Positions 12,691 to 25,868 of a stretch of 39,011 nt of DNA are shown here, in pieces. The notes beneath the pieces are model-generated. The model saw only the letters and a list, made by a program, of their open reading frames with translations, ran no database searches and was not told the DNA's origin. The translations under genes were made by a program, and so were the position numbers. Location: positions 62,332 to 101,342 of the forward strand of contig WHSQ01000004.1 in NCBI GenBank assembly GCA_009380005.1. Direction: 5' to 3'. Positions within the stretch are counted from its first letter, which is position 1; each line of letters begins with the position of its first letter. Source of the stretch: Actinomycetota bacterium (GTDB taxonomy: Bacteria; Actinomycetota; CADDZG01; WHSQ01).

Positions 12691-12945
12691 CTAGTTGAGT
12701 ACCGCATAGCGTCCTTCGAAGGTCACCGTTATCGGAGTGAGGTTGCGCACGGTGATCCAGTAGGTGCAGGCGCCGGCGTCCGCGCGCTCGACCTCGACCG
12801 TCCAGTTGATCTCCGGCGCACCGTTCCTGGGAGTCGTCGGCATCATGTACCAGACGACGTGCTTCCCGGCGCTCCACCCCCAGGTGAACCAACGGTTGGA
12901 GGCACCCGGCCCGAGCGTTCCCGTCCACTGAACTCCGGTGTACAT
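12691..12945 (-). CDS. Free-standing 84-residue copy of the beta-propeller protein's C-terminal domain
   Basis: Starts at ATG 12945 with AAGGAGG just upstream, 9 nt after the preceding stop. The 84 residues align end to end with the last roughly 85 residues of the large protein upstream. Shared blocks in order are GVQWTGxL, RWFTWGWxA, WHVxWxxMPTTPRxGAP, WTVEVERxDAxxCTYWI, and NLTPxxxxFEGRxAVL. The pattern of Trp and alternating hydrophobics suggests a small beta-sandwich. It has no signal peptide. It arose by domain duplication, or the large gene gained the domain by fusion. It could be a subunit, competitor or binding module with the same target as the large protein; I know no family name for it. 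Confidence 0.85.
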   Translation of the reverse strand: MYTGVQWTGTLGPGASNRWFTWGWSAGKHVVWYMMPTTPRNGAPEINWTVEVERADAGACTYWITVRNLTPITVTFEGRYAVLN

Positions 12946-12954
12946 GCTTCCTCC

Positions 12955-15603
12955 TTAGTACCTGCTGAGGACCGCGAAGCGACCCTCGAACTGGAGCGGC
13001 GATGGCGTCAGGTTGGTTACGGATATCCAGTAGGTGCAGCGCTCGGCGTCCCCGCGCTCGACCTCCACGGTCCATCGGACCTGAGGTGCACCGGGTCGTG
13101 GCGTCGTGGGCATCACCGTCCAGAGGACGTGCCACGTCGCCGGCCAACCCCACGTGAACCAGCGCCGCGTTTCGTTGGCCGCCAGGGAACCGGTCCATTG
13201 GACGCCGCACCATGGTTGCGTCATCCAGCCGTCTACCGGGATCTCCCATACGCCGCGATTGCGCGTTCCTGCTCGGAGCACGCGAGCGTGGGGGTGGAAT
13301 ACCAGGTCACCGATGTACGCGTTGGGCAGAGCGCTCGAGAAGTTGGACCAGCTCGCACCCGAGTTCCAGCTCTGGTAGACGCCGAGATCGGCGGCAACCC
13401 AGACCCGCTGTGCGTTGCCGCTGTCCACCTCGACGGCATTGATCGGCAGATTGGGGAGGCCGGCGGACACGTTCGTCCACGTGTTTCCTCCGTCCTCCGA
13501 ACGGAACACACGCCCGCCGCCGACCCTCGAGCTGGTGGCCCATATCCGTCCGCCGCCGCCCGGCGTCGCGTGCAGGTCGCTCACCCAAGCCCCCGCTCGT
13601 GGCGTCGTGAGCGCGGCCAGCGCGCCCCAACTCCCGGTCCAGCGGGTGCGGAAGATGCGGCCGTCGGTCAAGCCTACGATGACCGTGTCGGCGTCGGGGA
13701 TGTAGAGAGCGCTGGCGGTCCCCGCGGCCGGGAACCCCAAACGCGTCCAGGTGGTTCCAAGGTCCCGAGATACGTATAGCGCCTGCCCTCCTACCGCGAT
13801 CGTGTTCCCGGTGGTGGCACTGCATTCGAAGGGCACGTAGAAGAGTCCCGGACCTTCGCCGGCGGGGCGAGCCGGAGTGATGTTCACCCAGCTGCCGAAG
13901 TTCCCGCCGTTGGTCGACCGCCACAGCCGTCCCCATTGCCAGGTGTGGAAAACCACCTGCGGGTTGGCACGGTTCACACCGCAGTCGCCGCCATCCGCGT
14001 CGCTAACGTGCTCCCAGGTCGAGGGGCCCGTCCATCGGTTCGTCCCATTGTCCTGGGTACCCCCGATCAGCCACCGAGACGTGCCGACATGATGCGCGAT
14101 GTACTCGAACTCGCTGATCTGCAATCCGTTGTTGCAGTGGACCCACGTGATGCCTCGATCCCGCGAGCGATAGACACCTCCGTCGTTGCCGGCGTAGACG
14201 GTGTTGGGCGCTCCGGGTTCGAACGCGATCGAATGCTGGTCCGGGTGGATCGAGTTGCCGACGGTCTTGCTCGAGAGGTTGACCCACGTCCATGTCCCAC
14301 TCGAGAGGGTCCCTCGGTGGATGTCGATCGCCCCGCAGTAGATCTGATTCGAACGGTCCGGGGCCACGGCCAGGTACCAGTCGTACCAGGATTGCCCCGT
14401 GGCCGCCCCCGGAGGGATGCCGACCGCGGTCCAGACCCCACGGGCTCGACGCCACAGATAGGCGGTCGGGATCGAGCTCGGTCCCGTGTAAGGCGCCCCC
14501 GTCCCCCATGCGTACGCGATCCTGGGATTGGAAGGTGCGATCGCCACGGCCAGACGATCGAAGCTGCCGGGCGAACCGCGAAGTCCGATCCGGGTCCACG
14601 TCGTCCCGTTGTCGTTGGATCGGAACAGCCCGTCGCTACACCCGGCGAGTATCTGGGCACTGCCCGGCACCTTGCTGATCGACCACGTACGCGCGCTTCG
14701 GCGTCGGGTCCAGTTCACGCCCCTGTCGGTGGAGACATAGAGCCCTCGGGTCGTCCCCGCGTAGAGACGCCGGCCGTCGGCGGGATCCACCACGATGCAG
14801 TAGAAGCCCTGGCCGACGAAGGGGGCCGTGCACAGCGTCGACCACGTCGTGCCGCCGTTCGTCGACCGCAGGATGCCGACCCCCAGATAAGACCACCAAT
14901 CCCCTTCGCCCGTGCCGCAGTAGACCGTCGCCGGGGCCGAACGATCGAACGCCAAAGCCCCCACGGTGAGCGTCGCCTGGTAATCGGTGCGCGGGCTCCA
15001 GGAGGCGCCTCGGTTGAAGCTCTCCCACACTCCCCCGTTCGCAGCACCGGCCAGAACGTGGGCCGCGTTGGAGGGATCCGTAGCCAGAGCGGAGACCCGA
15101 CCCGATACGTTTACGCGACTGCTCCCGTAGGTCTGTCCGTTGATGACGGTCCATGGGCCACACGACCTCCAATGGGGGCCCAGCCCGACCGGCGGTCCCA
15201 TCTGCTCCGTGGCTTCCAGGTAGGCGGTCGCGATCGACTCTGCGGTTGCCGTGTCATCCAGGGTGCCGGCCTCATCGGGCTCCGGCTCCTCCGCGCGGGC
15301 GGTGCGGCCGGTCGTGGACTTGCGGGCCGTGGACTTGCGGGCCGTGGACTTGCGCTGTCGCTTCGGCCGCTTGCCGCCGGCCGGAGCGATCCCGGCCTCG
15401 GCGGCGATCTCCATGACCTCGGCGACGGCTTCGTCGGAGACGGCGCTCTGGACCGTCTCTTCGGCGAGCTCGGTCAGGCCATCGCTCTCGAGCATCTGCA
15501 GGAGACGCAGCAGTGCCTTGCCGCCGGGGGGCCGCGGCGGTGACTCTCCCTCCTCCAGCACGGTTCCCGCCGGAACGGGCGCTTCGTCGCCGGGGCCTTC
15601 CAT
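12955..15603 (-). CDS. BNR/VPS10-type beta-propeller repeat protein with C-terminal sandwich-like domain, no signal peptide
   Basis: An 882-residue protein. I chose ATG 15603 because AGGAGG lies 7-8 nt upstream; an ATG 18 nt earlier would place that site inside the gene. Layout: acidic/helical N-terminus (1-75), a very basic stretch KRPKRQRKSTARKSTARK (about 78-95), an acidic linker, then from about residue 145 to 790 at least nine BNR (Asp-box-like) repeats. Examples are GILRSTNGGTTWS, GLYVSTDRGVNWT, GVYRSRDRGITWV, LYVSRDLGTTWT and VFRSEDGGNTWTNV. These fit one or two beta-propellers as in sialidase/VPS10/photosystem-assembly-like proteins. The final 85 residues form a domain repeated in the next gene. 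No sialidase catalytic triad is evident and no export signal or anchor is seen, which is unusual for this fold. It is the first gene of a three- or four-gene operon. Confidence 0.88.
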   Translation of the reverse strand: MEGPGDEAPVPAGTVLEEGESPPRPPGGKALLRLLQMLESDGLTELAEETVQSAVSDEAVAEVMEIAAEAGIAPAGGKRPKRQRKSTARKSTARKSTTGRTARAEEPEPDEAGTLDDTATAESIATAYLEATEQMGPPVGLGPHWRSCGPWTVINGQTYGSSRVNVSGRVSALATDPSNAAHVLAGAANGGVWESFNRGASWSPRTDYQATLTVGALAFDRSAPATVYCGTGEGDWWSYLGVGILRSTNGGTTWSTLCTAPFVGQGFYCIVVDPADGRRLYAGTTRGLYVSTDRGVNWTRRRSARTWSISKVPGSAQILAGCSDGLFRSNDNGTTWTRIGLRGSPGSFDRLAVAIAPSNPRIAYAWGTGAPYTGPSSIPTAYLWRRARGVWTAVGIPPGAATGQSWYDWYLAVAPDRSNQIYCGAIDIHRGTLSSGTWTWVNLSSKTVGNSIHPDQHSIAFEPGAPNTVYAGNDGGVYRSRDRGITWVHCNNGLQISEFEYIAHHVGTSRWLIGGTQDNGTNRWTGPSTWEHVSDADGGDCGVNRANPQVVFHTWQWGRLWRSTNGGNFGSWVNITPARPAGEGPGLFYVPFECSATTGNTIAVGGQALYVSRDLGTTWTRLGFPAAGTASALYIPDADTVIVGLTDGRIFRTRWTGSWGALAALTTPRAGAWVSDLHATPGGGGRIWATSSRVGGGRVFRSEDGGNTWTNVSAGLPNLPINAVEVDSGNAQRVWVAADLGVYQSWNSGASWSNFSSALPNAYIGDLVFHPHARVLRAGTRNRGVWEIPVDGWMTQPWCGVQWTGSLAANETRRWFTWGWPATWHVLWTVMPTTPRPGAPQVRWTVEVERGDAERCTYWISVTNLTPSPLQFEGRFAVLSRY
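15314..15354. repeat. Direct tandem repeat of 15 bp (2.7 copies) inside the beta-propeller gene
   Basis: GTGGACTTGCGGGCC occurs at 15314-15328 and 15329-15343, and its first 11 bases again at 15344-15354. On the coding (minus) strand each unit encodes a KSTAR-type pentapeptide, giving the basic KSTARKSTARKST segment. The copies are identical at nucleotide level, so the expansion is recent or prone to slippage; copy-number variation would keep the frame. Confidence 0.9.
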
Positions 15604-15792
15604 CGCCCAACCTCCTGCCATCTCAACGGGATCTTGCAGATATCGTGCGGACGGCCCGTCACGCCAACGTCACCCGAACGTCACGTCGAGACGGCGGATC
15701 GGTCATCGGCTCGACACGCGGGGCCTTCGGCGCGAGGTTGTGTCGATGCCCGGCACCGCGAAACCCGAGGACCGCACCGAGAAGAGGACGGC
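15604..15792. promoter_or_regulatory. Divergent intergenic region upstream of the beta-propeller operon
   Basis: This 189-nt region separates the divergent starts of the beta-propeller gene (minus) and a small acidic protein gene (plus). It must hold the promoter of the three- or four-gene operon. The Shine-Dalgarno AGGAGG for the minus-strand start lies at about 15611-15616 (seen as CCTCCT on the plus strand). No clear -35/-10 pair or operator repeat could be recognised by eye. Confidence 0.4.
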
Positions 15793-15994: not shown

Positions 15995-17422
15995 TCAGTC
16001 GGCTATGAAATGGAACGTCGCTTCGACCTCGGTCCGCTGCGTCATCGGCAGGAGGCAGGGATCGCTTCCGGTGCAGGACCCGGTCCAGCCCTCGAAAAAA
16101 GAGCCCTCGGCGGGTATCGCCGTCAGCGTCAGTCCCTCTCCCTTGGGGACGTCCAGGACGCAAGTGGGAGGACACATCACGCCGGCCGGGCCGACCTCTA
16201 CGGACCCGGCCCCTCTTCCGGCTGGCGAGATGGTGAGTTGCACCGTGGCCGCCGGTCGCTCCTCGAACCTAGCCGTGACCGATGTTGCGTCGTCCATCGA
16301 TAGCTCGCATCCGCCGGTGCCCGCGCACCCACCGGACCAACCCGAGAACACGAATCCTTCGGCCGGGATCGCGGACAGGCTGAGGCCCTCCCCCCGGCGA
16401 GCGTCGTAGGAACATGTGGGAGGACATTCCACTCCCACGGCCCCCATCGTGACGAGACCCTCACCCTGGACCGAGATCGTCAAGGGAACCATCGCGGCCG
16501 GGCCACTCTTGCGGAAGCGTGCGGTGAGAGACGTGTCTTCGTTCATCTCCACGATGCAGCGCGGGGCGTCGGAGCACCCTTCGGACCAGCCGGCGAATCG
16601 AAAGCCCTGAGAAGGCACCGCGACCAACCTCAACTTGGCCCCCTCCTCGGCATCGAACGAACATGTCGGCGGACACGTGACCCCGGGCCGGATCCTTACG
16701 AGCCCGCTACCCTTCGTGCGCAGCGTGAGGCCGATCAGGTCGCCACCCCCCGTCTTGCCCTCGGGGACGTCGGCCATCGCGACGGTGATTATGAGGATCG
16801 CGACGAGGATCGCAGCGGTCACGTACCGGAGGAACCGCCTCTTCTGCGGACGGCGCGGGTCGGATCCTGAAGAGACCCCGGCTAGCACCGCGAGGAGGTC
16901 CTTCTCTAGCTCCGCGGCGCCTTCTTCCGCGCTGCGTACGCCTTCGCAGACCTCACGAGCCAGCTCGGGGAAGCGAGATGCCAGTTGATCCTTGAGCGCG
17001 GGAGCCACTAACAGGGGGACGCCGGACCTCGAACCCTCTTTCTCGTCGCGACCTTCCACGCGCGCGATCAGCCGGTCGCGAAGCGCGTCCAGAAGGGCAG
17101 CTCCGGCGACTCCGGCAACCAGCGCGATCCAGATCAGCGTGGGCAGCCCAACGAGAGCGGACCCATCCGTCTCGGTGCGAAAGGCGACCGCGAAGATCGC
17201 CGCGTTGCCCGCCACGACGCCGACGAGAACGGGTCCCAGGAAACCCAGATCGATCCCGCCCTCAACCCGGTGTGGCAGCGAGATCTGATTGTCGAGACGA
17301 GGCCGCTCCTCCGTCACCACGCCCACGGGGAACAAGATGTCGTAGACGAACCCACCCAGCGCGGCGAGCGAGGAGGTAACCGCCACGATCGTTACCAGTT
17401 GAGTCGCGAGGTCCAGCTCCAT
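15995..17422 (-). CDS. Membrane protein with three Cys-rich InlB/Flg_new-like beta repeats
   Basis: A 475-residue protein: membrane helices at about 5-27, 60-82, 92-112 and 199-217, with a charged cytoplasmic-type region between the third and fourth. Three homologous repeats follow at about 230-305, 312-387 and 393-472. Each contains CPPTC, a hydrophobic AxPxxGFxFxGW-type core, a pair of cysteines spaced C-x5-C or similar, and a final strand with TAxF. These match the divergent InlB B-repeat type found in surface proteins, and the four cysteines per repeat suggest two disulfides each. With four helices the repeats would lie outside if the N-terminus is outside. It is the last gene of the patatin/MBL operon, 10 nt behind the hydrolase gene. 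Confidence 0.8.
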   Translation of the reverse strand: MELDLATQLVTIVAVTSSLAALGGFVYDILFPVGVVTEERPRLDNQISLPHRVEGGIDLGFLGPVLVGVVAGNAAIFAVAFRTETDGSALVGLPTLIWIALVAGVAGAALLDALRDRLIARVEGRDEKEGSRSGVPLLVAPALKDQLASRFPELAREVCEGVRSAEEGAAELEKDLLAVLAGVSSGSDPRRPQKRRFLRYVTAAILVAILIITVAMADVPEGKTGGGDLIGLTLRTKGSGLVRIRPGVTCPPTCSFDAEEGAKLRLVAVPSQGFRFAGWSEGCSDAPRCIVEMNEDTSLTARFRKSGPAAMVPLTISVQGEGLVTMGAVGVECPPTCSYDARRGEGLSLSAIPAEGFVFSGWSGGCAGTGGCELSMDDATSVTARFEERPAATVQLTISPAGRGAGSVEVGPAGVMCPPTCVLDVPKGEGLTLTAIPAEGSFFEGWTGSCTGSDPCLLPMTQRTEVEATFHFIAD

Positions 17423-17432
17423 GCCGGTCCGA

Positions 17433-18608
17433 TCACCGCCTCTTCTTGGTCGGCTTGAAACGCAGCGCTTTGGTCAGATCGATCGGTTGCTTGGGGTCGT
17501 CCTCGAAACGCCACACGGTGAGCCCATCGCCCTTGCGCGGCGGGATCATCACTGCGATCGAGCCGAGCGGATCCTTGCTCCTGACCCCACGCCGATCGCT
17601 GGTGTACAGCACCGTCAGCTCGTGATCGGGGGTACGGCTCTGACCGGACGTGGTCGGTTCCATCCCCTCCCGTATCGATTCGAGCGCCAGCTGATGCGGG
17701 AAGTTGTACCTCCCGGCTCCCCCGACGGACGAGACCAGGCACAGGTCCGGATCCACGCGCTCCACGAGCTCGATGTTGACGCCATGTTTGGAAGCGTGAT
17801 GGGGGACCTTGAAGATCTGAGCGCGAAGGGGGTCGGCCCCCATGGGCTCGTCGAGCAGCTTCCGCAGCTCGCCCGCGGCCAGGAGTTGGGGGAAATCGAT
17901 CGTCGCCTGCGCCCACGAAGCGGTCTGGGCGTCGGCGCCCAACAATAGGGACCAGGGAGATCTGGGCCGCCGGTAGCGACGGTTCTCCCCCTTCTGGACG
18001 ATGCGTGCCGCAGGGAACTCGAACGACAGGGCGATCGACGCGTCGTTGATATTGATACCGAGCGTGTCGAAGCGCGTTCGCAACCCGACCCCTGGAGCGA
18101 TGGCCCTGATCTTGAGGGTCCCGAGGTAGCGCGTCATCCCGCTGGTGGGTTGGGTCACGAGGACCTTCTTGAGCCCTTCCAGCCGAACCATGGTCTCAAG
18201 GTACGCAGATGTCGGATGGTAATAACCCGAGTCCCAATATTCGGAGATGTGGTCGCCGAACCACGCGAGGAACTCGGGCATGCCGCCGAGGTGATCGTCG
18301 TGCGGGTGCGTTCCGACCACGAGCGGGATCTCATCCCCGCGCGGCCGCTCTGGGAATAGACCGTGGTGCGCGAGCTCCTCGATCAGCCCGGGTAGCTTGC
18401 GATTCGTCGCCACGTCGACCACGATCGCCCGGCGGCTATCGGCGGGATCCCCGGGATCCTGAGGGAGCAGGAGCAACTGCGTGTCGCCGTCGCCCACGTT
18501 CAGCACGAAGTACACCAGGCTGGCGGGGTCCTGCTTGCAGGCGGCGACGAAGTCCGCCTTCTCGAATCGTTCCGACGGGATGGGAGCCGGCGTCGTCGCG
18601 GCCCTCAT
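17433..18608 (-). CDS. ComEC/Rec2-like metallo-beta-lactamase-fold hydrolase
   Basis: A 391-residue protein starting at ATG 18608, which overlaps the upstream stop by 4 nt (ATGA). It begins with the strand LVYFVLNVGDGDTQLLLLP, the usual opening of ComEC C-terminal-type MBL domains. It then carries the metal-binding HPHDDH (101-106), a LLLGADAQ strand and KVPHHASKHG, all hallmarks of that branch. It has no membrane helices, so unlike ComEC it is a stand-alone cytoplasmic enzyme. The branch contains nucleases and phosphodiesterases; the substrate here is unknown. The operon pairs it with a patatin-like lipase and two membrane proteins. Confidence 0.88.
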   Translation of the reverse strand: MRAATTPAPIPSERFEKADFVAACKQDPASLVYFVLNVGDGDTQLLLLPQDPGDPADSRRAIVVDVATNRKLPGLIEELAHHGLFPERPRGDEIPLVVGTHPHDDHLGGMPEFLAWFGDHISEYWDSGYYHPTSAYLETMVRLEGLKKVLVTQPTSGMTRYLGTLKIRAIAPGVGLRTRFDTLGININDASIALSFEFPAARIVQKGENRRYRRPRSPWSLLLGADAQTASWAQATIDFPQLLAAGELRKLLDEPMGADPLRAQIFKVPHHASKHGVNIELVERVDPDLCLVSSVGGAGRYNFPHQLALESIREGMEPTTSGQSRTPDHELTVLYTSDRRGVRSKDPLGSIAVMIPPRKGDGLTVWRFEDDPKQPIDLTKALRFKPTKKRR

Positions 18609-19192
18609 GTCTGGATCTCGTCCTCGAGCCGCCACCGCTCGCCCACGTCGGCAGGCAACGTGGAGAGCATCGCTCCGTAGGAAGCCAGTTTCGCCAGCAA
18701 GCGGCCCTGATCGGTGAGATCCACCGGGCGGGTGAGGATCGTGGCCAGGTCCTCGACCCGCACCTCTCCGTGCTCGGCGTGTTGACGTAGGTCGTCGAGA
18801 AGCCGGGCGGCACGCCCCTTCTTGACCCGGGCGGCGAACGTCATGCCGATGCGTACCTCGACGCCTTCGTCGCCGGGTGTGCCATCCGCCCGCCGGCGCC
18901 GGCTCGAGGCGTCACCCCCGGTGCTCCCCGTCGCGAGGAACCTCTCGAGACCGGGTCGCGAGGTGCCCACCTCGACGGGATCGCCGGCGACGACGAATCT
19001 GAGGCGGCCCTGCTCGTCGGCGTGAGGCCACGGCGCGAACGAGAGCCCGACCCATCCCTCGACGATCTCGTCCACGACCACGTAGACCAGCCGTTCGTGC
19101 TCGTCGCTCAACGACGGCTCTGCCCTATGACCCGGATCCCAAGGGCGCTCGGGCACGACGGGCTCATCCGGGCGAGAAGGCGGCCAGGTCAC
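18605..19192 (-). CDS. Uncharacterised protein between patatin and MBL hydrolase genes
   Basis: A 195-residue protein if started at GTG 19192, which overlaps the patatin stop by 4 nt (GTGA); longer in-frame starts would run deep into the patatin gene. The N-terminal part has alternating hydrophobic strands (ERLVYVVVDEIVEGWVGLSF, GRLRFVVAGDP). An Arg/Gly/Asp-rich linker follows, and the C-terminal 70 residues are helical and charged (AARLLDDLRQHAEHGEVRVE, GRLLAKLASYGAMLSTLP). No catalytic motif, cysteine or membrane segment is visible. Its overlap with both neighbours (4 nt each side) implies that it is made in stoichiometric amounts with them, so it may be their adaptor or regulator. I do not recognise the family. 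Confidence 0.75.
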   Translation of the reverse strand: MTWPPSRPDEPVVPERPWDPGHRAEPSLSDEHERLVYVVVDEIVEGWVGLSFAPWPHADEQGRLRFVVAGDPVEVGTSRPGLERFLATGSTGGDASSRRRRADGTPGDEGVEVRIGMTFAARVKKGRAARLLDDLRQHAEHGEVRVEDLATILTRPVDLTDQGRLLAKLASYGAMLSTLPADVGERWRLEDEIQT

Positions 19193-20406
19193 GGAAGTGC
19201 CCTCCAGCGAGGAAGTTCGGAGGGGAGCTCTTCCCGGTGATAGGCGCTGAGCGTGGCACCGGAGAGCCACCAACCCCTGTAGATCAACTTCTCGCAGATG
19301 TCCCGAGGGAACTCGTCGAACGACGTCTTGTAGGCAGCGACGGCATCCACGGAGGAGCGATCCTCGTCCCGGCCCTCGGTCCACTCGGTCGGTGCGTCGG
19401 CCACGCTCGAGGCGAGCCCGAAGAGCACTCCCATCCGAGCCTCCTTCGGCGGTTCCCGGCCCTCGGCTCGGGCGCGCTCGAACATCTGGAAGCGTGCCAC
19501 CGAGTCCCGGAACCGGAGCGCCGTCGACTGTCGGTACAACAGCGAGTTGGCCCGCTGGAGATCACGCACCAGGGGGATGCCTCCGTACCGGCCGGTACGA
19601 AAGAGTCCGCCAGCGTTCAGGTTGACGATCAAGGCATGGGGGATGTTGTCCAGGGCCTCGATACCTGAATTGTCGTAGGCCCCGCCGTCCAACAGGTAAG
19701 GGGTGCGTCCTGCCGCGCAAGGGAACTCGATCCCCTCGATCCCGAGTGGCGCGAAGGCCCCGGGCACCGCCGCCGAAGCGGCCGCGGCGGTTGCCAGTCG
19801 CAGACCCGTGCCCTTCGTGTGAACGCGCCCCATCACCCAATCCCCCACGATCTCTCGCTCGAAGGCGAACCGGACACCGGTCGTCACGCTCGCTGCGTTG
19901 ATTATGAAGCGGCATTGCGAGGATAGGTCCTCCAGCTTGCGACCATCGAAGAACCACCGATCGAACATGTCCGCCAGTAGGTGGGTGCGCGTCTTGGAAC
20001 CGATCGTGCGCCAGATGTTGCGCAGCAATGCCCGGCTCAGCGAAGTGCTCGAGATCTTCTTCACGAACGGGCCGACGACGAGATCATCAACCGCTTCGGC
20101 CGTGAATCCGGCGTCCTGAAGCTTCTCGTACCGATGCGCGAACAGACCGTTGGCCAAGGATCCGCCCGATACGGACGACACGTAGCGGACGCGTGGCAGC
20201 ATCCCGGCATCTGCGACGAAGCGGAGGACCCCCAGAGCGGCAAGGGTGGCGCGGAAGCCACCCCCGGAGAACGACAGGGCGAGCGCGGTCCCCTCGTCCG
20301 AAGGGGGCGGTTCGCTCGCCCGCAACAGATCGTCACACGCAGCGATCAGGTCATTGCGTGCCGTGCCGATCGCCGGCGATTCCAGCGGGGACTTGGAGGT
20401 CACCAC
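19189..20406 (-). CDS. Patatin-like phospholipase
   Basis: A 405-residue protein from GTG 20406 (a second GTG follows directly). The oxyanion-hole motif is SGGGFR (47-52), the nucleophile elbow reads SVSGGS with Ser80, and the catalytic aspartate is Asp240 in LLDGGAYDN, giving a complete Ser-Asp dyad. The elbow has SxSxG instead of the classical GxSxG, as in some cytosolic-PLA2-like members. No signal peptide is present. The enzyme should hydrolyse acyl esters of membrane lipids from the cytoplasmic side. It is followed with 4-nt overlaps by an unknown protein and the MBL hydrolase, and preceded by a membrane protein gene 90 nt upstream. Confidence 0.9.
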   Translation of the reverse strand: MVTSKSPLESPAIGTARNDLIAACDDLLRASEPPPSDEGTALALSFSGGGFRATLAALGVLRFVADAGMLPRVRYVSSVSGGSLANGLFAHRYEKLQDAGFTAEAVDDLVVGPFVKKISSTSLSRALLRNIWRTIGSKTRTHLLADMFDRWFFDGRKLEDLSSQCRFIINAASVTTGVRFAFEREIVGDWVMGRVHTKGTGLRLATAAAASAAVPGAFAPLGIEGIEFPCAAGRTPYLLDGGAYDNSGIEALDNIPHALIVNLNAGGLFRTGRYGGIPLVRDLQRANSLLYRQSTALRFRDSVARFQMFERARAEGREPPKEARMGVLFGLASSVADAPTEWTEGRDEDRSSVDAVAAYKTSFDEFPRDICEKLIYRGWWLSGATLSAYHREELPSELPRWRALP

Positions 20407-20496
20407 CGGCGAGCCTCGGCGATCGGGGCGAGAGCCGCGACGGGCGGGTTCATACGCTCCTCCTGGATCGGTCGGACGATGGGCGAGAGATGAGCA

Positions 20497-21930
20497 TCAC
20501 ACGGCCTCTTCGGCAGAACGCAGCCACGACCGTCGCTTCCACTGGCGAACGTGCCACAGGTTCACCTCGCCCTCCAAGGCTCGGCGCAGGCCGGCCGTGG
20601 CACTTGGTCTGCCGTCGGCCTTCCCCCCCGGGTTGAGGACCCAGAGCAACGCCCGGCGGAACGCCGGATCGGTGTCGCCTTCGAAAGCGTCCATAAGATC
20701 CGTCGCCGTACGGATGCCGATCCTCCGAAGGTCCTCACGGTCGCTGTCGCGCGTCACCCTCAGATAGAGGAACGATTGATCCACCCAATCGATCACCCGG
20801 TTGATGGGCACACGAGTGTTCAGCATCAGCTCCACGAGGTTGGCCGTGGACAGGTTCTGCATGTCCTCGATCCCCTCTTCGAGGAGCCGGGCCCGGTTCC
20901 AGAAGTTGATGCCATCGAGGACCTTCAGCGAGTAGCGATCGTCGCCTTCTTCGTTCCGACTTCCCAGCTTGCCGACCACGCTCTTCCATAGGAGCTTCAG
21001 GCCGAAATCGGGGAAGAACCCGATGGCCCACGCGATCGCCAGCTCCCACTCCGCCGATACCCCAAATGAAGCAAGGATCGGATGAAGGGCGACGATCACG
21101 GCTCCGGCCAAGATCAGGTGGCCCATGGCGCTTATGTAGGCATGGGTCTTGAGGTCGCTCTGGAAGTAGCGCCGTATGAATTGCTGAACCATGAAGGCGT
21201 AAGAGCCGATGAACGCGAAACGAAGGGGATCAACCGGCGTCTCCGGCAGGCCCGTGAGCGCGCCCGTGAATATCCGTATCTGCGCGAACGCTTCGGGCAC
21301 CAGGACGGCGCTCCACCCGACGCAAAGCAACATCGTGAGCATGATCACCGGGAAGAAGGCGTCGACCTTTATCTGCTGCGAGATCCGCCCGCCGGCCTGT
21401 GCGGGGAGATTGCTATCGGAACTGCGCCTGCGGCGTGACTGAGCGATGGCAGAATCGCCGTAGACCGACTGGAACTTCTTCAGATAGATGTTCCGGCCGA
21501 CCTTGTGATCCTTGCTGACCTTTTCGTTCCACTCGTCCCAGTAGACGGATCCCGGCGGAGGTTTGGGAAGGTTCTCGATCGCATCGATCTTCATCCGGTA
21601 GAGGTTCAGGACGTACTCGTCGTACAGCCCCTGCCCCCTTATCTCTATGAATTGCAGATACAACCAACCCGGAACGACCGAGAGGAACAGGATCAGGAAC
21701 GCCTTCAGTAGGGATATCTGACTGGACCTGTCCACGAAGGTCGTCGCCACGAGAGCCAGGGCGATGACGAGCAACAGACTTCCCATCTTGGCGGCACGAG
21801 ACAGACGCACGGACAGGCCGCCGGGTCGAGCCGTTCGCTTGGAACGCCCCGAACTCGTCAGCGCATCCCGAGTGCGACGCCTCGCGGGGAAGAAGCGCCG
21901 GTGCTCGAGCGCTCCCGTGGTGCGACTCAT
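20497..21930 (-). CDS. Multi-pass membrane protein of unknown function, first gene of the patatin/MBL operon
   Basis: A 477-residue protein. The start ATG 21930 has GGAGGA at ideal spacing. The first 45 residues are strongly basic (many Arg), then two membrane helices (about 49-65 and 72-92) are followed by a 90-residue soluble loop. Further helices follow at about 193-215, 240-258 and 270-310, and a 160-residue soluble C-terminal region with predicted short helices (LRRIGIRTATDLMDAFEG is reminiscent of a helix-hairpin-helix; ATAGLRRALEGEVNLWHV). No enzymatic motif is seen. By position it may anchor or gate the soluble enzymes of the operon. I do not recognise the family. Confidence 0.8.
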   Translation of the reverse strand: MSRTTGALEHRRFFPARRRTRDALTSSGRSKRTARPGGLSVRLSRAAKMGSLLLVIALALVATTFVDRSSQISLLKAFLILFLSVVPGWLYLQFIEIRGQGLYDEYVLNLYRMKIDAIENLPKPPPGSVYWDEWNEKVSKDHKVGRNIYLKKFQSVYGDSAIAQSRRRRSSDSNLPAQAGGRISQQIKVDAFFPVIMLTMLLCVGWSAVLVPEAFAQIRIFTGALTGLPETPVDPLRFAFIGSYAFMVQQFIRRYFQSDLKTHAYISAMGHLILAGAVIVALHPILASFGVSAEWELAIAWAIGFFPDFGLKLLWKSVVGKLGSRNEEGDDRYSLKVLDGINFWNRARLLEEGIEDMQNLSTANLVELMLNTRVPINRVIDWVDQSFLYLRVTRDSDREDLRRIGIRTATDLMDAFEGDTDPAFRRALLWVLNPGGKADGRPSATAGLRRALEGEVNLWHVRQWKRRSWLRSAEEAV

Positions 21931-22126
21931 GTCTTCCTCCAGGCTGCGACGGTGATCAAGCCAATCCTAGGCACCGGCGGTTGGCGCATCCCTGCCAACT
22001 TGCGGCAGAGAACTGCCAGATTCGGGACCGGACTCGGCGCAGTCATGCGGCCCATCCGACATGGAACCGCGCCACCGCCGGCCCTACGCTGAAACCGACG
22101 CGGGATAGATGACAAGGAGGCCACGC
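21931..22126. promoter_or_regulatory. Divergent intergenic region between membrane-protein operon and trypsin-like protease
   Basis: This 196-nt region holds the promoters of two divergent units. AAGGAGG at 22114-22120 lies 6 nt before ATG 22127 and fixes the protease start. The complementary CCTCC near 21936 serves the minus-strand gene. A shared control region would link expression of the protease with the patatin/MBL operon. No convincing operator repeat was seen. Confidence 0.4.
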
Positions 22127-23212
22127 ATGATCCAGCGAACGGTGCCCAAAGAGTTCGACGATCTGGTCCAGGTTCAGGCAGATCATCAGGACCGGCTCCT
22201 GGACAAGTCCAACGTGGTGGGCGTTGCCATAGGGAACAAGGTCACCGGCGACGAGGTAACCGACGAACGTTCGATCACCGTGCTGGTCGACACGAAATTC
22301 GATGCCAGCCTGCTCGGAGACGAGGACATGGTTCCCGACGTCCTGGACGGGGTGCCGACCGATGTGCAGGAAGTGGGCGTGATCCAGGCCGGGGGGCCCG
22401 CGATGACGATGAACCGGGACATCCACCTCGGCGAACTCGACATCTCCGCGCCGCGACGTGCCGAAACGAACGGCGCCGAGCTCACGCACCCCACCGAGGA
22501 AGCTCCCCTCGCCGAACAGATCACCCCCTTCTTCCTGAAGACACGGATGAGGCCCGCCATGGGGGGATTCAGCTGCGGTCACTACAAGGTGACTGCGGGA
22601 ACCATCGCGACCGGTTGCTACGACCGCAGGTACATGCCCGGGATCCCTCAGGCCTACTACCTGCTCAGCAACAACCACGTACTTGCCAACTCGAACAACG
22701 CCAACATCGGGGATCCGGTCGTTCAGCCCGGGATCTTCGACGGCGGCACCGTCGCCTCGGACACGATAGGGCGACTCGCTCGCTTCGTGCCTCTGAAGTA
22801 CAAGACGGCGACCACGACCCCGCTCAACTACGTCGACGCGGCGATCGCTCAGGTCGACTTCCATAACCTCAACCGGGAGATCTACTGGATCGGCTACGTG
22901 AAGAAGCTCTACGTCGCCCCCACCCTTGGGCAGATCGTGCAGAAGACGGGACGGACCACCAATTTCACGACCGGGAAGGTGACGAACATCAACGCCACCG
23001 TGGACGTGAACTACGGAAGCGGTCGCGTTGCCAGATTCGCCCGCCAGATCCTGACGACGAACATGAGCGCGCCGGGCGACTCGGGGAGCCTGGTCACGAA
23101 CCTCGAGGAGCAAGGTGTCGGACTGCTCTTCGCAGGCTCCTCGGAGGTCACCGTGATCAACCACCTGCATTACGTGCAGTCCCTGCTCGGCGTCAGGGTC
23201 ACGGAGACGTAG
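22127..23212 (+). CDS. Trypsin-fold serine protease with N-terminal Nal1-like domain, no signal peptide
   Basis: A 361-residue protein. The catalytic triad is readable: His184 in SNNHVLA, Asp237 in YVDAAIA and Ser319 in APGDSGSLV, with the G-D-S-G-S elbow. Residues 25-90 form a separate domain (SNVVGVAIGNKVTG, SITVLVDTK, VPDVLDGVPTDVQEVG) of the kind found in front of bacterial proteases that resemble plant NARROW LEAF 1. No signal peptide or anchor is present, so it should act inside the cell. It is divergent from the patatin/MBL operon and is followed by a strong inverted repeat and a small gene that resembles its N-terminal domain. Confidence 0.88.
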   Translation: MIQRTVPKEFDDLVQVQADHQDRLLDKSNVVGVAIGNKVTGDEVTDERSITVLVDTKFDASLLGDEDMVPDVLDGVPTDVQEVGVIQAGGPAMTMNRDIHLGELDISAPRRAETNGAELTHPTEEAPLAEQITPFFLKTRMRPAMGGFSCGHYKVTAGTIATGCYDRRYMPGIPQAYYLLSNNHVLANSNNANIGDPVVQPGIFDGGTVASDTIGRLARFVPLKYKTATTTPLNYVDAAIAQVDFHNLNREIYWIGYVKKLYVAPTLGQIVQKTGRTTNFTTGKVTNINATVDVNYGSGRVARFARQILTTNMSAPGDSGSLVTNLEEQGVGLLFAGSSEVTVINHLHYVQSLLGVRVTET

Positions 23213-23563: not shown

Positions 23564-24229
23564 CTAAGAGCCGGTTGCCACGGCTGCGACACGTCGGGCC
23601 CGGAACTCCGTCAGGTCGTCCCAGCTCGCGTCCAGAACGCCCCATCGCGCGGCCCGCACGACGGCCTCGGTTCGGCCCGCCACTCCCATCCGAACGTACA
23701 GGTCGTGGAGCCTCCGGTACATCTCGCGCTCGGAGAAGCAGACCGACTCGGCCAGTTTCGTCACCTTCATCCCGCGAGCGAGCGAGCGCAACCATTCGAT
23801 CTCCAGACTCGACAGAGGACAAGCCTCCGGAGCTCGATCCTCGGCCCGGACGAGGTCGCGCAACAACTCCGTGGGGATCAGACTCAAGCCCGTGGCGGCT
23901 ACGTGTATCGCTCCGACGATCTCCTCCATCGAAGCTCCGGCGGGGAGACAGGCGGTGGCTCCGGCTGCCACGCATTGCCTGAGCGAAACGACGTCATCCT
24001 GCTCGTGGATGGCGACGACGGCGAGGTCGCGGTTACGGGCCACGGCGAGACGCAGATCCCTGATGTCCGAGGGCCCGCGGATCGAGAAGACTGCGATACG
24101 CCGTCCAGCCTGCGATCCCCAAGCCTGCAGCTCGACGGTCTCTTCGACCTGGAACCCCGCCTCGGACAGGGCCACAGACAACCCATGCCGGTAGGGCGGG
24201 AATCGGTCGACAACGGCAAGGCCATTCAT
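23564..24229 (-). CDS. LuxR-type regulator with degenerate receiver domain
   Basis: A 221-residue NarL/FixJ-like protein from ATG 24229 (GAGGG upstream). Residues 1-120 have the length and strand-helix order of a receiver (LAVVDRF, IAVFSIRG, LAVVAIHE, GATACLPAGAS). However, the position that normally holds the phosphoacceptor Asp reads FSIRG, so phosphorylation is unlikely. The C-terminal helix-turn-helix is also divergent: LSSLEIEWLRSLARGMKVTKLAESVCFSEREMYRRLHDLYVRMG in place of the usual LTxRExEVLxLxAxGxSNxEIA pattern. It is probably a DNA-binding protein responding to something other than phosphorylation. The gene is convergent with the small protein at 23301 and divergent from the MaoC gene. 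Confidence 0.8.
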   Translation of the reverse strand: MNGLAVVDRFPPYRHGLSVALSEAGFQVEETVELQAWGSQAGRRIAVFSIRGPSDIRDLRLAVARNRDLAVVAIHEQDDVVSLRQCVAAGATACLPAGASMEEIVGAIHVAATGLSLIPTELLRDLVRAEDRAPEACPLSSLEIEWLRSLARGMKVTKLAESVCFSEREMYRRLHDLYVRMGVAGRTEAVVRAARWGVLDASWDDLTEFRARRVAAVATGS

Positions 24230-24968: not shown

Positions 24969-25868
24969 ATGCCGCCGAGACGCAAGTGCGGAGCGATGCA
25001 GGTCCACGAACGGCTCGCCGAGACCTACACATCCTTCCGGGACAACCAGGACCGTATCCAGAGGTTCACGGAGCGAAGCCTGACCACTGGGGAGGCGCAG
25101 GCCGCCGTAGACCGGCTGGTGACGATCCCGGTGGTCGTCCACGTCGTGTATCGGACCGATGAGGAGAACATCTCCAAATCCCAGATCAACAGCCAGATCG
25201 CGGTCTTGAACCGCGACTTCCGCGCGAACAACCCCGACAAGAGCCAGGTCCCGGATGTTTGGAAGGGACTGGTGGCGGATGCCCGGATCCAGTTCGCCCT
25301 GGCGACCACGGCACCGAACGGAACCCCCACGGACGGGGTTACGCGTACCGAGACGAACCGACAGTCCTTCGGCACGGACGACTCGGTCAAGAATCCAAAG
25401 AGGGGCGGTGCCGCTGCATGGCCCCGGGATCGGTACCTCAACATCTGGGTCTGCAAGCTGGACGAGGGATACCTGGGCTACGCGCAGTTTCCCGGAGGAC
25501 CTCCTCGCACCGATGGCGTAGTGATCCTGCATTCCGCATTTGGCACCCAGGGGACGGCGAGTGCACCCTTCAACCTCGGCCGGACGACGACACATGAGAT
25601 CGGTCACTGGCTCAACCTGCGTCACATCTGGGCCGACACCATCGGGTGCTCGGGGACGGATTACATCGCCGACACCCCCAACGCCCAGATGCCCAACTAC
25701 GGCACTCCGACCTTCCCCCACATCTCCTGCAACAATGGGCCCAACGGCGACATGTTCGTGAACTACATGGACTACGTGGACGACGTCGCGATGTTCATGT
25801 TCTCGACCGGCCAGGCCGCGCGCATGAATGCCTGTCTGATCGGGGCGAGGAAGAAACTCGCGAGCTAG
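24969..25868 (+). CDS. M43-family zinc metalloprotease (pappalysin/ulilysin-like), no signal peptide
   Basis: A 299-residue protein from ATG 24969 with GGAAGGAGG upstream. The zinc site is HEIGHWLNLRH (His209, Glu210, His213, His219) and the Met-turn is VNYMDY (Met267), which together define the metzincin family M43. TIPVVVHVVY (52-61) opens the catalytic domain. The first 50 residues form a short pro-region containing RRKCGAM; Cys7 could occupy the zinc as the cysteine switch known from pro-ulilysin. There is no signal peptide. It is followed after 2 nt by the next gene, so the two are co-transcribed. Confidence 0.92.
   Translation: MPPRRKCGAMQVHERLAETYTSFRDNQDRIQRFTERSLTTGEAQAAVDRLVTIPVVVHVVYRTDEENISKSQINSQIAVLNRDFRANNPDKSQVPDVWKGLVADARIQFALATTAPNGTPTDGVTRTETNRQSFGTDDSVKNPKRGGAAAWPRDRYLNIWVCKLDEGYLGYAQFPGGPPRTDGVVILHSAFGTQGTASAPFNLGRTTTHEIGHWLNLRHIWADTIGCSGTDYIADTPNAQMPNYGTPTFPHISCNNGPNGDMFVNYMDYVDDVAMFMFSTGQAARMNACLIGARKKLAS

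Follow-up and report, generated by a model that had tools for sequence, protein, structure and literature searches.

A patatin, a small orphan protein, and a ComEC-type hydrolase form the conserved core of a candidate conflict module in Actinomycetota

We analyzed a 39,011-nt stretch of DNA from an Actinomycetota bacterium (GenBank assembly GCA_009380005.1, contig WHSQ01000004.1, positions 62,332 to 101,342; G000:C444:62332-101342 in our labeling, where G, C, and L numbers denote genomes, contigs, and loci), hereafter the window. It carries a minus-strand operon in which a patatin-like phospholipase (PAT), an orphan protein (U), and a ComEC-type metallo-β-lactamase hydrolase (MBL) lie between two membrane proteins (M and R), with a trypsin-fold serine protease (TRY) divergent from the operon. 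What is conserved is the core, PAT-U-MBL; the full set of five genes is not kept together as a unit. We consider it fairly probable that the locus is a conflict module, directed against invaders and probably acting by abortive infection, with the lipase and the nuclease as effectors, because (i) its distribution is patchy, (ii) its enzymes have no predicted transmembrane (TM) segment, (iii) PAT-U-MBL occurs on a plasmid, and (iv) relatives of the patatin lie beside MBL and peptidase genes, Hachiman, and the cyclic-oligonucleotide-based antiphage signaling system (CBASS). The parts are of known kinds; the combination of PAT-U-MBL with exchangeable proteases is not named in the literature searched.

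Transcription runs from M (20497-21930; 477 residues, four predicted TM segments) through PAT (19189-20406; 405 residues), U (18605-19192; 195 residues, GTG start), and MBL (17433-18608; 391 residues from its ATG) to R (15995-17422; 475 residues), all on the minus strand of a genome that is a 3.8-Mb draft in 639 contigs. M and PAT are separated by 90 nt, PAT-U and U-MBL each overlap by 4 nt, and 10 nt separate MBL from R. An earlier, sequence-only reading of this DNA had described the five same-strand genes with these overlaps and the 10-nt gap, and the coordinates of the five open reading frames (ORFs), all present, agree with it. The coding status of M, PAT, MBL, R, and TRY is backed by codon-position GC; U was displaced by the overlap filter in that check, and its coding status is backed by homologs in four other genomes. 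By hydropathy, on which our TM and signal calls rest, TM segments are present in M and R and none are predicted in PAT, U, MBL, or TRY. A 17-codon ORF with a strong Shine-Dalgarno sequence (20400-20453, minus strand) lies in the M-PAT gap and ends inside the start region of PAT, for which it may be a leader that provides translational coupling.

Pfam, PADLOC, and NCBIfam scans were run on the operon proteins, and PADLOC also on 25 chosen flanking proteins. PAT matches PF01734 at 1e-17 (65.5 bits, against a gathering threshold of 27.7) and has both patatin motifs intact, namely SVSGG at residues 78-82, with the nucleophile Ser80, and DGG at 240-242. Neither PADLOC nor NCBIfam gave a match for PAT, U, or M, and Pfam placed U in no family. 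Relatives of PAT at 1e-12 in the genomes were found, besides the window, in G101 and G060, both in ordinary surroundings. MBL matches PF00753 at 9e-6, and its motifs THPHDDH (100-106), GADAQT (224-229), and PHHASKH (269-275) are likewise intact; the patatin identity, and the numbering of Ser80 in PAT and of His101 in MBL, are as the sequence-only reading gave them.

The ComEC-likeness of MBL, also proposed in that reading, was recovered in three ways. A four-member MBL profile searched against the PDB matched the ComEC nuclease domain 9ic4 at 3e-9; Foldseek placed 9ic4 first with an AlphaFold model of MBL (E 1.5e-10, the next at 1.4e-7), a model whose mean predicted local distance difference test (pLDDT) score is 59.9 and which is reliable only for about residues 12-170; and MBL aligned with the ComEC of a Bacillota contig. 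In that alignment, MBL has two extra stretches, residues 203-220 (18 residues; 17949-18002, minus strand) and 230-246 (17 residues; 17871-17921, minus strand), which flank D226; the region is modeled poorly (pLDDT under 50 for residues 225-347). Weaker matches to the LmuA (2.5e-8), Avs1a (1e-5), RTasMBL, and ComEC models of PADLOC and NCBIfam cover chiefly the C-terminal PHHxS part and do not come near the NCBIfam cutoffs, and a search of genome contigs with MBL had a ComEC as its sole match. By its sequence, MBL is ComEC-like, and we infer that it is a DNase.

The association of U with MBL was followed through 396 genomes from the phylum. U, searched as a three-row alignment (G000, G012, and G046), had eight matches at 1e-3, of which the five in G000, G012, G046, G190, and G112 were strong, and a two-row MBL alignment (G000 and G012) detected a close MBL at 1e-15 in four genomes (G000, G012, G112, and G190); G112 and G190 were outside the first search alignments for both proteins. 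In each of these four genomes, the end of U meets or overlaps the start of MBL. Against plasmids, MBL had one true relative, on the Streptomyces plasmid NZ_CP109461, and a second, archaeal match at 6e-6 with unrelated neighbors. The plasmid carries, in order, a patatin, an IS701 transposase, a 146-residue relative of U (hhalign probability 93), and then an MBL that shares 40% identity with that of the window. U is therefore directly upstream of MBL in all five close-MBL loci, two of which (the window and NZ_CP109461) also have the patatin in front of U-MBL. A plasmid search with a U relative at E 0.01 gave no match, and a close MBL was found in none of the 121 genomes of G044's family (Streptomycetaceae-like). 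Weak U matches in G047, G111, G376, and G384 (E ~1e-4 to 1e-3), the last inside a ribosomal-protein cluster (L033), look like chance; this view draws on the gene calls at L033 and the ORF list at L008 (G047). The structure model of U is a low-confidence α/β model whose best PDB match has E 0.03, and no fold was assigned.

In G046, U occurs without a close MBL, upstream of a 453-residue protein and a DyP-peroxidase-like gene. Next to this U lies a pair of orphan genes encoding 522 and 328 residues (L007 4198-6755; also L040 1-2784, L083, and L084). G020 has a fusion of the 328-residue protein with an S8 peptidase (40%), and this protein also matches proteins annotated as phospholipase D on alphaproteobacterial plasmids; the pair looks like another adaptor common to hydrolase effectors.

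The rarity of U and MBL bears on the alternative that the sequence-only reading had offered, envelope lipid turnover. We considered this as an envelope or phospholipid turnover operon in which PAT would remodel membrane lipid, MBL would hydrolyze a phosphodiester or lactone intermediate, and M and R would be envelope proteins with extracellular stress-sensing repeats. The enzymes are indeed flanked by two membrane proteins, one with Cys-rich InlB-type repeats, and the 25 scanned flanking proteins include no defense genes, the surrounding genes (among them what we take to be a TauE-type permease and an amino-acid ABC transporter) being ordinary neighbors. However, a close MBL in 4 of 396 genomes, a strong U in 5 of 396, and the absence of U from 14 of 15 other genomes of the same family make the locus too rare for housekeeping, and a universal housekeeping operon is rejected in the sample searched. 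Moreover, a copy is plasmid-borne, MBL is closest to a DNA nuclease rather than to lipid hydrolases, and the patatin clade is tied to peptidase and MBL genes beside Hachiman and CBASS. We regard envelope turnover as quite unlikely.

Proteases of several types accompany U-MBL. TRY (22109-23212, plus strand), which had been named as a trypsin-fold protease divergent from the operon and is one by our analysis, combines a NARROW LEAF 1-type N-terminus (NAL1_N, 1.5e-6) with a trypsin fold (Trypsin_2, 1e-4, below its cutoff) and an intact triad (H..D..GDSGS; NNHV, VDAA, and GDSGS). G190 comes from a different family of the phylum; there, a LuxR-type gene and a relative of TRY lie divergent from U-MBL, and this relative is the nearest of all to the window TRY (61% identical), which places the trypsin-fold gene in the picture, as had been suggested. 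TRY relatives occur at 1e-20 in 12 of 246 genomes, the next closest being those of G238 and G062; that of G238 lies beside a LuxR gene at a contig end, where the neighborhood is cut, and this regulator is shared with G190 (37%). A LuxR-type regulator common to the window and G190 was rejected, the comparison of the window protein at 23564-24229 with the G190 gene giving E 0.08, which is not significant. Downstream of U-MBL in G012 come a HETGH zinc-peptidase-like gene, a second MBL, and an M10/M12-like peptidase. A protease-like gene thus adjoins U-MBL in three of the five close-MBL loci; none was recognized directly beside U-MBL in NZ_CP109461 or in G112, where the contig ends ~850 bp downstream of MBL.

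TRY and the proteins of L064, L069, and L070 are bacterial relatives of the plant protease NARROW LEAF 1, and several such relatives have an extra short gene alongside that resembles the N-terminal domain (L064: blastp 38% over 80 residues). TRY relatives and M relatives also occur on plasmids.

The membrane proteins are less constant. M, whose only Pfam match is at 0.2, has relatives in 8 of the 396 genomes, mostly solitary. In G009, the order of transcription is a DUF3376 patatin, an MBL, M (split at two contig ends that overlap by 127 nt), a protealysin-type M4 peptidase, and a small gene that we take to be emfourin-like. R had been described as a membrane protein with disulfide-rich repeats; it is a membrane protein, and its cysteines lie in repeats, which we identify as C-terminal InlB-type B-repeats (PF18998, in three stretches) and which, going by the positive-inside rule, we would place on the extracellular side. 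Its N-terminal part was found in the window's genome only (1 of 149 genomes). Paroceanicella and R. phaseoli have another membrane protein in common at their patatin loci (42% identity). A membrane protein is thus a frequent but not a fixed part of such loci, given that M is mostly solitary but present in the G009 locus, R was found in the window only, and a different membrane protein is shared by two plasmid loci.

These distributions bear on whether the locus is one system at all. PAT-U-MBL could be a unit and M, R, and TRY unrelated chance neighbors, as the single occurrence of the R N-terminus, the occurrence of M mostly without the others in its genomes, the 90-nt M-PAT gap, and the solitary TRY-like genes elsewhere would allow. 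Against this stand the TRY relative that adjoins U-MBL in G190, the G009 M that adjoins a patatin-MBL pair and a protease, and the membrane protein shared by the Paroceanicella and R. phaseoli loci, and we judge chance proximity of all three to be unlikely, while giving it some weight. The co-occurrence of the five families as a unit was not supported, since R was found in the window only and M is mostly solitary; the independent scatter of homologs that would have counted against a module is seen for M and R, and PAT-U-MBL does not show it.

Plasmids provided a second view of the patatin. A tblastn search of 72,556 plasmids with PAT at 1e-5 returned 16 records, and a search at 1e-30 with its Paroceanicella relative (37% identical to PAT over 227 residues) returned 20 records, which contained all 16. 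Within ~5 kb of the patatin, an MBL was present in 15 of the 20 records, a peptidase in 15, and both in 13, in a scan that classifies rather than discovers, some of its MBL and peptidase seeds having been taken from the scanned loci. When counted as distinct loci (L088/L102, L093/L101, and L048/L100 merged), 12 of 17 have an MBL and 10 of 17 an MBL and a peptidase. As a control, 15 tiles of up to 11 kb were taken from loci selected without regard to MBL, and none had an MBL, the tiles being mostly actinobacterial and the plasmid loci mostly rhizobial; in a second control, HxHxDH occurred in 2 of 262 gene calls. For peptidases the tile control cannot be used, as seven of its loci were selected on the basis of TRY.

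The composition of these plasmid loci varies around the patatin. L047 (Paroceanicella profunda pD4M1C) has a patatin, a membrane protein, an S8 peptidase, and an MBL, the last of which matches the Avs1a model at 2e-44, below the cutoff; L089 has a patatin, S8, and an MBL; and in L048 (S. americanum) and L100, an operon of a caspase, a 404-residue protein, and an MBL is divergent from the patatin. HamA lies near the patatin in 3 of the 20 records and a CBASS cyclase in 2 (PADLOC, HamA 4e-145 and cyclase 3e-148). L093, L101, and L094 have a patatin, a HETTH protein, and an MBL, followed by HamA and a helicase, and in L092 and L094 the same three genes have a CBASS cyclase upstream. The M10/M12-like peptidase of G012 is 30% identical to the rhizobial-plasmid HETTH protein over 405 columns, which links an actinobacterial U-MBL locus to the rhizobial patatin loci. 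The operons of Paroceanicella (L047) and of the rhizobia (L092-L094 and L096) share the effector logic of the window but differ from it in having no U, a peptidase of S8 or HETTH type, and an MBL of another subfamily.

Two further plasmid loci deserve mention. In L086 (1538-6164; Agrobacterium plasmid), an MBL, a fused E2/E1/JAB protein, and a window-type patatin form one operon, possibly the system behind the NCBIfam '6A-MBL' model; our literature search found no paper naming a '6A-MBL' system. In the patatin locus L099 (1089-6067), the zinc-peptidase and MBL genes, counted above as present, are broken into several frames, by either decay of the copy or sequencing error.

Protease activation of MBL nucleases is established for HamM and Avs1a, in Hachiman and AVAST (antiviral STAND NTPases), by Tuck et al. 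2025 (PMC12799240), where caspase-nuclease loci are described too; in the gated nucleases, two disordered insertions with a conserved cleavage residue cover the active site, and a radiation of nuclease homologs is described with proteases of 'other diverse families'. The window resembles the published gated MBL and trypsin-like pairs (HamM/HamA, Avs1a/Avs1b, and those of Lamassu and of the defense-associated reverse transcriptases, DRT; PMC12799240) in its ComEC-type MBL with an intact metal motif, its nearby trypsin-fold protease, its insertions near the active site, and a pair exchanged recurrently between loci. It differs from them (PMC12799240) in that the protease is a separate and divergent gene, neither fused to a sensor nor directly downstream of the nuclease. 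It also differs in adding a patatin, U, and membrane proteins, and its similarity to Avs1a and LmuA is weak, far below the cutoffs. Unlike in AVAST, Lamassu, Hachiman, and DRT, no STAND NTPase, SMC-like LmuB, HamAB, or reverse transcriptase was detected by Pfam and PADLOC in the operon or by PADLOC in the 25 flanking proteins. Canu (caspase-nuclease, CanABC; PMC12799240) likewise combines an MBL nuclease with a protease from a different family and with a third, functionally uncharacterized protein; unlike it, the window has no caspase, whereas the S. americanum operon has one. Neither 'patatin' nor 'lipase' appears in the main text of this paper.

The EACC1-caspase and NucA-trypsin systems (Kaur et al. 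2020, PMC7159879) share with our locus exchangeable peptidases and effectors, a small constant protein, and an actinobacterial setting. However, EACC1 has one TM helix and precedes a caspase gene (PMC7159879), and the window has no caspase or NucA; as U has no TM segment, its identification as EACC1 was rejected. Neither 'patatin' nor 'MBL' is mentioned in the main text of Kaur et al. 2020 (PMC7159879). No patatin-MBL-protease system was found by title or abstract opening in the open-access PMC literature, which is not the whole literature. In CBASS with CapV, a patatin is a suicidal membrane-degrading effector (PADLOC 'Effector Phospholipase'); the NZ_CP109461 patatin matches this model weakly (2e-6) and window PAT does not. 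Unlike CBASS, the window has no cyclase among the scanned proteins (its plasmid relatives have one nearby in 2 of 20 records), and a CBASS identity was rejected. The statement that no known system has this composition stands for the exact set, but the logic of a nuclease plus a trypsin-like protease is known (PMC12799240).

Under the conflict-module reading, the core would be a patatin phospholipase, a ComEC-type MBL-fold DNase, and a dedicated small partner, U, with exchangeable proteases and membrane proteins. In a resting cell, the phospholipase and the DNase would be made together and kept inactive, with U, the two MBL insertions next to the active site, or both restraining MBL. A membrane component (M, R, or both) or some other sensor would report infection or envelope damage, the membrane components serving to sense or to anchor; a protease, here TRY, would cleave U or MBL and free the nuclease; PAT would meanwhile attack membrane phospholipid; and the cell would die or stop growing before the invader spreads. 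By analogy with the published pairs, protease activation of the MBL nuclease at this locus is conceivable, though on balance doubtful. The wider proposal is one that we make tentatively, at somewhat less than even confidence, namely an undescribed defense family in which an exchangeable protease (trypsin, S8, HExxH zinc peptidase, or caspase) would set off a patatin phospholipase and a ComEC-type nuclease at the same time, so that membrane and DNA are destroyed together. In this proposal the actinobacterial U is a dedicated nuclease gatekeeper, and rhizobial plasmids carry members of the same patatin clade next to Hachiman and CBASS.

Several observations weigh against these proposals. The window itself is not a defense island: PADLOC gave generic matches only, and no defense genes, among the 25 flanking proteins, and the GC content, 62-68% throughout, gives no sign of a foreign origin. 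In the operon, no sensor of the STAND, helicase, SMC, or cyclase kind was found, and MBL had no match in phage records or viral contigs. TRY lies 3.5 kb from MBL and is divergent, whereas the published pairs have a fused or downstream protease; moreover, G062 (17 kb read) and other genomes have TRY-like proteins but no U or MBL with them. Insertion 2 of MBL is strongly conserved across the family, unlike a disposable loop. On the plasmids, 5 of the 20 patatin-clade records (L087, L090, L091, L097, and L098) have no MBL within 5 kb, and the relationship between the window MBL and the patatin-linked MBLs of rhizobia is no more than remote (hhalign probability 74, over the N-terminal 104 columns). 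The conflict or abortive-infection idea of the sequence-only reading nevertheless gains from the rarity of the locus, the plasmid-borne PAT-U-MBL copy, and the patatin relatives found by an MBL in 15 of 20 records and some by Hachiman or CBASS, although it does not extend to all five families as one unit.

Other hydrolases lie around the operon. An 888-residue Asp-box/sortilin-type (BNR) repeat protein with no apparent signal segment is encoded at 12955-15621, its C-terminal domain being duplicated as a separate 84-residue gene at 12691-12945 (65% over 81 residues), and an M43-type (pappalysin-like) peptidase, also with no apparent signal segment, is encoded at 24969-25868, ~2 kb beyond TRY. 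Several hydrolases within 14 kb could suggest nutrient scavenging, in which an extracellular lipase, a nuclease, and proteases (TRY, M43, and the sialidase-like repeat protein) would digest dead biomass. However, by hydropathy PAT, U, MBL, TRY, BNR, and M43 are all free of predicted TM segments and of hydrophobic stretches resembling a signal, and the distribution is very patchy; we regard scavenging as highly improbable.

If the conflict-module reading is true, membrane lipases and proteolytically gated nucleases, which are usually described apart, would be joined in one exchangeable cassette that spans Actinomycetota and Alphaproteobacteria. U is a concrete orphan family whose role as a nuclease partner can be tested directly.

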